Shown here one piece after another: positions 51,416-54,262 of a stretch of DNA of 64,000 nt. The stretch's first letter is position 1; every line of letters begins with the position of its first letter. The DNA is from Arthrobacter sp. D5-1. Its GTDB lineage: Bacteria; Actinomycetota; Actinomycetes; Actinomycetales; Micrococcaceae. Below the pieces are notes generated by a model that made no database searches, was not told where the DNA came from, and saw only the letters and a list, made by a program, of their open reading frames with translations. The stretch lies in assembly GCF_017357425.1 (NCBI RefSeq), contig NZ_CP014571.1, positions 3,100,001-3,164,000 on the forward strand, read 5' to 3'. The position numbers and the translations under genes are program-made.

Positions 51416-51662
51416 CTGATGAACCTTCTGTTCGATGGATTCGGCGCGCCGCCGTGGGATATTTGTGACGGCGCACACTCTTAGTGCCTCGATTCAACCA
51501 GACTTCGCAGGCCGCGAACCGTCATTTTAGTGATTTGAGACACAAAATTTACTTTCCAGTAGCTTTCTTCGAACGCCTCCCGGCCATTGCTCCGACGGAT
51601 GCGCCGGAATATCGTAGGTTCCGAGTCCCCACTCACTGAAAGACCGCCCGAAGGACACGCAC
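51416..51662. promoter_or_regulatory. Divergent promoter region of the peptide transporter and the metacaspase gene
   Basis: A 247-bp gap. An AT-rich core at about 51522-51560 contains TAAAAT on the minus strand, a good -10 candidate for the transporter, with only a poor -35 at 17 bp. On the plus strand the caspase start is preceded by GAAGGAC; no convincing promoter hexamers were seen for it. There is no repeat or dyad of note. Confidence 0.35.
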
Positions 51663-52490
51663 ATGAGCAAGGCAGCACTTTGTGTAGGGATCAACAAGTT
51701 CAAATTTCTGCCCCAGGCCAGCTGGCTCAACGGCTGCGTCAACGATGCCGAAGACCTCGCAGCGATGCTCGAAAAAAACTATGGCTTCGAAGGTTCCAAC
51801 ATCACTGTCCTGCGGGACGCCAAAGCGGTGAAAAAGTCAGTCATGGCTGCTCTCAATGCCTTGGTGGACGCTGCCGTGGCGGGTACCGTGACCCACATTG
51901 TGTTCACCTTTTCAAGCCATGGAACCCAAGTGCCGGACACCAGCGGCGATGAAAGCGACCGCTTGGATGAGGCCTTTGCGTGCTACGACATCAACAACTC
52001 CGGTGATCGCTGGGATCCCGGCACGGTGATCACCGACGACGAACTCGCATCCTTGTTTGCCCGGCTGCCGAAGGGAGTCCTGATGGATGTTGTGCTTGAT
52101 ACCTGCCACAGCGGAACGGGCCTGAAGTCATTGGACCTCCTCCCCGGACGCCGTCCCCGTTTCCTGCCGGCGCCCAGCCCCCGGGCAGCCATCGCCAATG
52201 AATCCAAGGACACCCGCAGCTTGCGGGACATGGTCAAGGCGGCCAAGCTCTCCGCACCGGTTCTGATGGCAGCCTGCCGCTCAGACCAGACTGCAGCCGA
52301 CGCCTTCATAGAGGGCCGGTACAACGGCGCCTTTACCTACAACTTTGTGAAGGCCCTCATGGGTGACGGTACCGTGGCGCGGGCCGACATCCTGAAGCAG
52401 GTCAGCAAGGGCCTCAAGTCCGGCGGCTTCGATCAGATCGCCCAACTGGAAGGCTCGACGGCGGCACGCAGGGCCGCGTGGGGCGCCTGA
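51663..52490 (+). CDS. Metacaspase-like cysteine protease (caspase family, C14)
   Basis: A 275-residue cytosolic protein made of a single caspase-fold domain. The first strand is KAALCVGINKFKF, followed by NDAEDLAAMLEKNYGF. The catalytic histidine is His86 in FTFSSHGTQV and the catalytic cysteine Cys148 in VVLDTCHSGTG. An acidic DESDRLDEAFACYD segment between them matches the calcium or substrate pocket of type I metacaspases, which cut after Arg or Lys. There is no prodomain, signal peptide or fused sensor. It is transcribed alone, divergent from the peptide transporter and convergent with a metalloprotease gene 37 nt away. The physiological role is unknown; bacterial caspase-like proteases are linked to stress and to abortive-infection systems in other settings. 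Confidence 0.93.
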   Translation: MSKAALCVGINKFKFLPQASWLNGCVNDAEDLAAMLEKNYGFEGSNITVLRDAKAVKKSVMAALNALVDAAVAGTVTHIVFTFSSHGTQVPDTSGDESDRLDEAFACYDINNSGDRWDPGTVITDDELASLFARLPKGVLMDVVLDTCHSGTGLKSLDLLPGRRPRFLPAPSPRAAIANESKDTRSLRDMVKAAKLSAPVLMAACRSDQTAADAFIEGRYNGAFTYNFVKALMGDGTVARADILKQVSKGLKSGGFDQIAQLEGSTAARRAAWGA

Positions 52491-52527
52491 CTTGGGTGCC
52501 TGGGGAAGTCCGCCGGCTGCCGAAAGC

Positions 52528-54159
52528 TTAGTCCCCGGTGCCATGGAACTTGTCCCGGACCCCCGATGAGGCGGCCTCCTCAGCGTCGTGGTGCTGGTCC
52601 GAACCGAACATCTGCCCTTGGCGTTCCCTGTCCATCACTGGTTTGAGGGCCGCATACACCAGCCGGCCACCGGCGTCGAAACGCAACAGCCCTCCCCCGC
52701 GGATGTCCACGAAGTCCCTCCGGGTTTTCAACCCGAGGCGGACGTATGCTTCCCGCCGGCTCATCCGGACCGTCTGGATGAACGAGGCTCCTATCTCGGA
52801 AATAATGAATCCATCCGGGGACACACGCTCAGAGGTACGTACGCGCGTGGAACTGAGGGGTGTACGCCGCTCAAGCCGCGCCGCCTCCAGGAGTCGGGGA
52901 TTTTCCCAGACAAAGCGCTGCACCTCCTGGGGGTCGGAGCCGAGGGCCGAAAGCCTGATGGGGTAGCGGAGGCCCTGGTAGTTGTCCACGCCGCTGATGT
53001 TGTTCAAGGAGACCCGACGTATTCCGATGGCGGAGAACTCGTTTTGGATCGCCTCGCGGTATCCGTGATTGTCTTCGGGAACCATGTCGAGGTCGGCTGC
53101 AATGATGCCGCGGAGGAGATCCCGCCACGAGACGTCCACAGGTGGCATGTAGGAGAGTCCGCGGATCACCATCCGCAGGACCCGGGTGGCCACAATCGAG
53201 CCTGATTCGGCTTTCTGTTGCAGACCTTGGCTGTCCCCGAACCGCGCGTTCCGCTCCGACCACAGACGTTGGACGGCCCGGAGCACCGCCCCCACCACCA
53301 CGGCACCCCGTGCATGCGGCTCCAGCAGTGACTGCCAGCCATCGGGCACAGCGCCAACGAAGGGCTCGCGCAGTGGCCCGCGGGCGAAGAGGTCACGCGC
53401 AAAATCAAAAAGGGAACGCATCAGGATGGCATCATCAACTGCTTGCCCGGCCTCAAACCCACCGCCGGCCGCTTCAAGCTGCCGCGCCACCACGTCGCGG
53501 GAAGAAAAGACGGAAAGGATGGCCACGATGTCGGCCAAGGCCTCGTGCATGGCCAGCTGCTCCGTGGTGGCCATGTGGTCGGCCCACGCCGGCCGGAACC
53601 CGTCCAGGATGGCATGTGTCACTTCGTGGGCGACGATGTCCCGGTAGAGGGCTGTGGGGACTTTGTATCCCATCCGATCCACCGAACCGAAGCGGATGAT
53701 GTTGGTTCCCCGTTCGTAGCCGGTGTCAGTGGCAGTGATCAGATCCCGCGCTTTGAGAACCACACGCCCTTCCGGGTTCCAGGGCATGCGCCTGCCGAGC
53801 GTCGTTTCGAAGATATCCAAGGTACTCATGGCCACACCGTAGACGTGCTGTGCCAGGAAACGTGTGTCATCCAGGAGTTCACGCAAACCCGGTGCCGGAG
53901 GTTCCGAGATCAGCTGCCAGGGATCACCTTGCTGCGTCAGCGTCACCGGGGACACAGTGGTTCCACGCCACTTCCTGATATGGACGGCGTAGCGGTGGCC
54001 GGTGGGACCACGCCTGAGGCGTTCAACCGGGATACGGACCTGTGCCGTCAGTGGAGGTGCTCCCGGGGCGCCGATAGGCCCCTCGGCCAGGACCGTCACC
54101 GAGACCATCTGCCCGGCTTTGATGTCCCCCGGGCTCTTTTTTGGATATGCCACAGTCAT
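52528..54159 (-). CDS. Cytosolic HExxH metalloprotease (gluzincin/M4-like), unclassified
   Basis: A protein of about 543 residues from the ATG at 54159 (a TTG at 54183 would add eight). The zinc motif HEVTH is at 178-182, followed 20-odd residues later by MHEALADIVAIL, where Glu206 takes the place of the third ligand and the pattern resembles the NEAxSD of thermolysin-type enzymes. The N-terminal 100 residues are beta-rich; the C-terminal 200 contain a long mixed region ending in a His/Asp-rich tail (GSDQHHDAEEAASS). There is no signal peptide or propeptide, which is unusual for the M4 group and implies action inside the cell. Convergent with the metacaspase gene. I do not recognise a named subfamily. 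Confidence 0.78.
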   Translation of the reverse strand: MTVAYPKKSPGDIKAGQMVSVTVLAEGPIGAPGAPPLTAQVRIPVERLRRGPTGHRYAVHIRKWRGTTVSPVTLTQQGDPWQLISEPPAPGLRELLDDTRFLAQHVYGVAMSTLDIFETTLGRRMPWNPEGRVVLKARDLITATDTGYERGTNIIRFGSVDRMGYKVPTALYRDIVAHEVTHAILDGFRPAWADHMATTEQLAMHEALADIVAILSVFSSRDVVARQLEAAGGGFEAGQAVDDAILMRSLFDFARDLFARGPLREPFVGAVPDGWQSLLEPHARGAVVVGAVLRAVQRLWSERNARFGDSQGLQQKAESGSIVATRVLRMVIRGLSYMPPVDVSWRDLLRGIIAADLDMVPEDNHGYREAIQNEFSAIGIRRVSLNNISGVDNYQGLRYPIRLSALGSDPQEVQRFVWENPRLLEAARLERRTPLSSTRVRTSERVSPDGFIISEIGASFIQTVRMSRREAYVRLGLKTRRDFVDIRGGGLLRFDAGGRLVYAALKPVMDRERQGQMFGSDQHHDAEEAASSGVRDKFHGTGD

Positions 54160-54262
54160 CGCCGTCCCGAATGCGGACCCCAAACACCGCAGCGGAAGCG
54201 CTGCTTAGCCCAGTATGGAGGCGCCCCATGGCGGAGGCAATGGGTGTGGCGGGCTAGAGCTC

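Follow-up and report, generated by a model that had tools for sequence, protein, structure and literature searches.

The caspase and the zinc protease encoded side by side in Arthrobacter sp. D5-1 are very probably functionally linked. The link is judged so likely because, in the sequences compared, the two genes are present and absent together, stay adjacent through rearrangement, and show an apparent replacement of one partner by another of the same family. The window, which is the whole stretch of 64,000 nucleotides that was analysed, contains this pair, and its features are as follows.

51663..52490, + strand: metacaspase-type caspase, 275 aa (Pfam C14 81.3 bits, PDB phmmer, and Foldseek)
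51918..51920, + strand: catalytic His86 codon (40/40 relatives)
52104..52106, + strand: catalytic Cys148 codon in the DTCHSG motif (40/40 relatives)
52149..52160, + strand: Arg-rich loop, residues 163-166, a candidate self-cleavage site (conserved Arg)
52528..54159, - strand: cytosolic zinc protease with a mature thermolysin (M4/M36) fold, 543 aa
53614..53628, - strand: HEVTH, residues 178-182, with zinc ligands and catalytic Glu (40/40 relatives, 45/45 in the wider set)
53542..53544, - strand: Glu206, third zinc ligand (40/40, 45/45)
53314..53316, - strand: His282 (40/40, 45/45)
53011..54105, - strand: thermolysin-fold region, residues 19-383, without a preceding propeptide (structure-model alignment)
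52570..52872, - strand: conserved C-terminal domain, approximately residues 430-530 (strands and a helix in the model, and sequence conservation in two alignments)

The gene pair and its catalytic residues

The caspase and zinc protease genes are convergent in the window, with 37 bp between them. The preliminary description had reported two tail-to-tail proteases with a gap of this length, neither of them with a signal peptide. Both points are confirmed for the window proteins, and both genes are intact. It had also described the His86/Cys148 pair, the HEVTH motif, and a downstream glutamate as intact, and none of these residues varies among the 40 relatives compared. The dN/dS ratio in three comparisons is 0.035-0.05 for the protease and 0.072-0.087 for the caspase. 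Judged by substitution rates, these low values show that both genes are maintained in working form under strong purifying selection.

Caspase: Membership in C14 is supported by PF00656, which scores 81.3 bits against a curated threshold of 21.4. A phmmer search of the PDB returned Metacaspase-4 (5e-20) and GSU0716 (1e-15), Foldseek matched the structure to metacaspases and GSU0716, and the PADLOC 'caspase' model matches at 1.5e-15. The common fold and the His/Cys dyad are shared with Arabidopsis metacaspase-4 and -9, fungal metacaspase-1, and Geobacter GSU0716, and the GCVND and DSCHSG residues of AtMC4 align. The class name of these metacaspases is C14B. In contrast to them, the close family of the window caspase was found in our samples only alongside a thermolysin-fold protease, and it is fused to a hydrolase in two genera (g17 and g22). 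The caspase domain also resembles that of the EACC1-associated caspases (NF047832), but with 27.2 bits against a cut-off of 140 it lies far below the family cut-off and is not a member. Residues C25, D28, and D146 are invariant in 40/40 aligned sequences, and the same motifs align with AtMC4. These residues are presumed to form an acidic S1 pocket for Arg/Lys, after Cys92/Asp95/Asp211 of TbMCA2. Since they are invariant, cleavage after Arg/Lys is expected. The caspase is probably calcium-dependent. In the Arg-rich loop, R163 is kept in 39/40 relatives, R164 in 38/40, and R166 in 40/40, and the structure model has a pLDDT below 50 at residues 150-197. A suggested EF-hand is disbelieved at E 0.15.

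Zinc protease: His178, Glu179, His182, Glu206, and His282 are identical in 40/40 relatives and also in the 45/45 rows that include distant relatives. His282 is presumably the counterpart of thermolysin His231. The predicted fold is like that of mature M4/M36 enzymes, and with thermolysin, aureolysin, vibriolysin, and fungal M36 enzymes the protease has in common the mature catalytic fold, HExxH plus Glu, and a downstream His. Unlike these enzymes, it has no signal or propeptide, possesses its own C-terminal domain, and reaches only 14 bits with Pfam PF01447, below the curated cut-off of 22.4. The C-terminal domain was barely probed by the PDB comparison. The earlier picture of an M4-like protease without pre- or propeptide is borne out, as the model fold starts at residue 19 and no signal-like stretch is present. 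Homologues that are normally secreted would have refuted the proposed pairing, and a secretion signal might have been overlooked in the window protein itself; both ideas are rejected, as no such signal was found in 40 near and eight distant proteases. A propeptide-less intracellular enzyme of the thermolysin fold poses the question of how its activity is restrained.

Shared presence and absence of the two genes

Close families were defined by a search identity of at least 49% for the protease and at least 61% for the caspase. In the genus sample, the close protease occurs in 16/101 genomes and the close caspase in the same 16. In the family sample, 16/197 genomes have the protease, the same 16 have the caspase, and the genes are adjacent in all 16, which belong to the window genus (g1) and to genera g7, g17, g22, and g31. 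The class sample has both close families in the same 3/394 genomes, two of them from another family. The three samples overlap, and the genome of D5-1 is in all of them. Across these overlapping genus, family, and class samples (101, 197, and 394 genomes), no genome with just one close family was found. Several remote matches were not counted as close. They comprise four genomes with distant proteases (32-33%) and six with only distant caspases (32-39%) in the genus sample, two of each kind in the family sample, and four distant-protease and seven distant-caspase genomes in the class sample, where G392 is in both groups with its two genes far apart. As the class and phylum scans scored just 3-6 candidates per genome, absence there is weak.

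When 14 loci were fetched with the protease alone, the caspase adjoined it in 12 and lay elsewhere in the genomes of the other two; six of the 14 loci are from genomes of the genus sample. Altogether, 40 genomes with both genes were collected, and the genes are adjacent in 37 of them. The soil strain Paenarthrobacter aurescens TC1 (L027) is one carrier of the pair. The preliminary description had suggested a functional link if the genes co-occur, and this suggestion is well supported by the holding of both genes in the same genomes and by adjacency across genera. Nor is adjacency limited to close relatives, which had been named as a point that would refute the idea. It is found in g1, g7, g17, g22, g31, and g41, the last of another family, and a caspase also lies near a distant protease relative on a planctomycete and a cyanobacterial plasmid.

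Gene order and partner replacement

The pair persists in the six genera despite altered orientation, being either convergent or co-directional. In g22 (six genomes) and g17 (one genome) the genes are co-directional, the caspase preceding the protease. An alpha/beta-hydrolase-like domain forms the N-terminal part of these caspases; it matched no Pfam model and was recognised by eye from its GHSAG motif. A BTAD-domain regulator follows the protease in 6/7 of these loci by cluster (2/2 tested by Pfam), and a sigma-70-family factor lies upstream in g22 (Pfam, one tested). In g31 and g41 the protease lies between two caspases, a short one that faces it and a hydrolase-caspase on its other side. In g31, a RelA/SpoT-domain protein adjoins the caspase (L109:6186-7295 and L108:10374-11483, with Pfam run on L109). 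The hydrolase domain was also sought as a detached gene; it is absent elsewhere in all 18 of the 18 g1 genomes tested, and in g7 it is present in 3/3 genomes, inside a separate hydrolase-caspase.

Three genomes of one clade (G022, G101, and G102) encode the caspase away from the protease. The protease of G022 is in the usual place, as shown by its neighbours. In the trees, the proteases of these genomes are among ordinary genus sequences, whereas their caspases fall outside the group of the 23 remaining caspases of the genus. The simplest reading of these trees is that the adjoining caspase was lost in this clade and replaced by a caspase of the same family from another lineage; being confined to one clade, the replacement is a single event. 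The protease and caspase trees are not congruent elsewhere either, as the proteases of G020, G059, G063, G081, and G100 group with g7 and their caspases with g1. Moreover, most g1 rows of the protease tree (21) sit on a very long branch (1.73) that has only short counterparts in the caspase tree. The protease may have diverged rapidly or been replaced there.

The apparent replacement bears on one alternative for the mechanism. Alternatives considered here and below concern role or mechanism and overlap, and their probabilities need not add up to one. The two proteases could each act on targets of their own within a single response, without ever contacting each other, which would suit the separate transcription units of the convergent genera and the distant loci, most of which pair the protease with a metallo-beta-lactamase-type (MBL) fold gene instead of a caspase. 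However, a replacement from within the same family suggests a need for that type of caspase, and parallel action is regarded as possible, if doubtful.

Chromosomal site, gain, and loss

The following unit is missing at the same site in a close relative.

51579..54257, no strand: unit of both genes, missing from this site in G023 (blastn against L149; window position 51578 joins the base next to 54258)

G023 is 97% identical in mnmA and 96% in the binding protein and is without the 2.68-kb unit, which consists of the two genes and their flanks. It is among the six genus genomes with only distant caspases. Of the 85 pair-less genus genomes, 20 were examined; mnmA was found in all 20 and a solute-binding gene at most 0.7 kb away in 18, the exceptions being G004 and G016, in which no binding-protein gene was found beside mnmA. 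The pair of the window genus is flanked by an oligopeptide transporter on one side and mnmA on the other, and the g7 pair is at the same site. For 46 genomes, 26 of them carrying the pair and 20 lacking it, a quick mnmA tree was built, with the presence labels of both genes set equal from earlier searches. It needs four changes, three of which are forced by supported branches; with so small a number, the sign test gives only p 0.25. Because the g7 pair occupies the same site, repeated loss of an old unit would fit no worse than repeated gain. Transposition of the unit via bounding repeats is not claimed, as the repeat search gave short, chance-like matches.

With g7 and the window genus sharing the site, location by itself accounts for part of the linkage. 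The genes could thus be plain, functionally unconnected neighbours that shared ancestry has kept together at one site, and the few independent changes within the genus and the partly conflicting protease and caspase trees also agree with this. In contrast, the genes are adjacent in another orientation or among other neighbours in g17, g22, g31, and g41, no sampled genome has one close family alone, and three genomes keep both genes though they are unlinked. Because unlinked genes are retained together, mere neighbourhood is highly improbable, and a functional link is preferred.

By Pfam, ten further genes around the pair (44-61 kb) are unassigned or belong to transport and house-keeping types. 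No defence island was found there by Pfam and PADLOC of the neighbours. The PADLOC matches that might have marked neighbours as defence genes are an oligopeptide ABC ATPase and an aminotransferase beside mnmA (SspA/DndA models), which are taken for an ordinary transporter and an IscS-like enzyme. With regard to a STAND- or SMC-type sensor, the flanking genes profiled in the window flanks are of transport and house-keeping types. This quiet chromosomal site in the window genus counts against a defence role. Alternatively, the linked genes could serve house-keeping or stress functions, such as the removal of damaged proteins or lysis during development; this would agree with the fixed site in g1 and g7, the strong purifying selection, the house-keeping neighbours, and the BTAD and sigma-70-family regulators of g22 and g17 (the sigma factor in g22). 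It fits poorly with the patchy presence in 16/101 genus genomes and with distant relatives that lie on plasmids, some of them next to defence-type genes. A role of this kind instead of defence is rated rather unlikely.

Distant relatives of the zinc protease

A tblastn search of plasmids with the protease gave 53 records, 35 of them from Rhizobium, with 29.9-34.8% identity in the 20 listed; an Agrobacterium relative as query gave 64 records. Thirty distant loci were examined: 19 from plasmid records, 10 from genome stretches, and one from a phage record. Several of these loci are near duplicates. An MBL-fold gene is directly downstream of the protease in 25/30 and is missing in L174-L177 and L193. 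The MBL profile was built from 10 of the 25 counted neighbours, and the other 15 matched independently. A phylum scan of 396 genomes added one further MBL-type locus (G752). All four MBL proteins tested match the PADLOC model LmuA and, more weakly, Avs1a, RTasMBL, and PDC-M48B.

Lipase-like neighbours occur in the 17 annotated plasmid loci (DUF2235/Tle1-like in four, patatin in four, and phospholipase D in one). Two of the 17 (L142 and L188) have annotated CBASS cyclases, and one (L184) has SIR2 proteins. On plasmids, a subtilisin (S8) domain is fused to the protease in L146, L183, L184, and L185, and an MBL-fold gene follows. Five genomes of the window genus (G014, G047, G082, G050, and G290; loci L169-L173) have the order DUF2235 (a Tle1-like phospholipase domain), protease, MBL, with no caspase and no window-type pair. 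The wider protease family thus does not need a caspase.

The likeness of these loci to MBL-fold defence systems (Avs1a, LmuA, RTasMBL, and PDC-M48B models) lies in the MBL gene downstream of the distant relatives. We take the MBL-protease defence module to be the Avs1/Lamassu hydrolase-protease type. In contrast, the window type has a caspase beside the protease, and its protease matches no PADLOC model. An MBL gene was found in 0/37 caspase-type loci scanned at E 1e-6, and one MBL query found no partner in the window genome. Elsewhere in the pair-bearing g1 genomes, the single MBL query gave nothing in 14/16 and a weak match (E 1.3e-4) in two.

Among the distant loci, a caspase is near the protease in two. 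L143, a planctomycete plasmid, has the order caspase, small regulator, protease, MBL. L193, a plasmid of the cyanobacterium Kovacikia, has a hydrolase-caspase followed by a protease that is broken into two reading frames (L193:5773-7720), by decay or sequencing error. Both are among MBL-linked rows of the protease tree, apart from the actinobacterial clade, and supported branches require caspase partnership to have changed at least twice in this quick tree, which includes 15/40 caspase-linked rows and in which long branches call for caution. A phage-borne origin is not adopted: among 50,697 phage records searched by tblastn, a single unannotated faecal record turned up with both protease and MBL. 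A scan of viral contigs with one of the alignments gave 73 pattern matches, none of them confirmed as a relative.

Proposed mechanism and role

By analogy, there is about an even chance that the pair is one functional intracellular two-protease module, acting as a proteolytic switch in phage conflict or in severe stress and cell death. The switch and the conflict or death role are proposed because of the company kept by the family and the roles of caspases and MBL-containing modules elsewhere. The preliminary description had likewise suggested that one protease might activate or degrade the other, possibly as a stress or phage-defence module, and this part of it stays a proposal. We infer the protease activity, the cleavage order, the trigger, and the defence or cell-death role, and we read the module as a caspase variant of the MBL-protease module. 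In the proposed switch, a signal would activate the caspase, which may mature by cutting its own Arg-rich loop. The caspase would then release or cut the zinc protease, for example at the conserved C-terminal domain, and the released zinc protease would degrade host or invader proteins. The reverse order, in which the zinc protease would release the caspase, is about equally possible; in the relatives concerned, the protease would act on the hydrolase-fused caspase.

More broadly, and tentatively, the cytosolic thermolysin-fold family may be the core of a partner-swapping immune or cell-death module, though we hold this with less than even confidence. Its partner would be an MBL-fold hydrolase in most sampled bacteria, often with a lipase-like enzyme or a subtilisin fusion. 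In Micrococcaceae and their neighbours it would be a metacaspase, either free-standing or joined to an alpha/beta-hydrolase. The caspase and the thermolysin-type enzyme would then form a two-step bacterial protease cascade. A swap from MBL to caspase around the same protease would connect the MBL modules of defence islands with caspase-based systems. To our knowledge, few bacterial caspases have a known substrate. Here, the shared presence and absence of the two genes and the apparent replacement of the caspase point to the zinc protease as a likely substrate or co-effector.

As a separate observation on the hydrolase domain, the caspase-fused domain of g22 and g31 was matched within proteins of proteobacterial plasmids that are annotated as C1 family (papain-like) peptidases (H84, H85, H87-H89, and H92).
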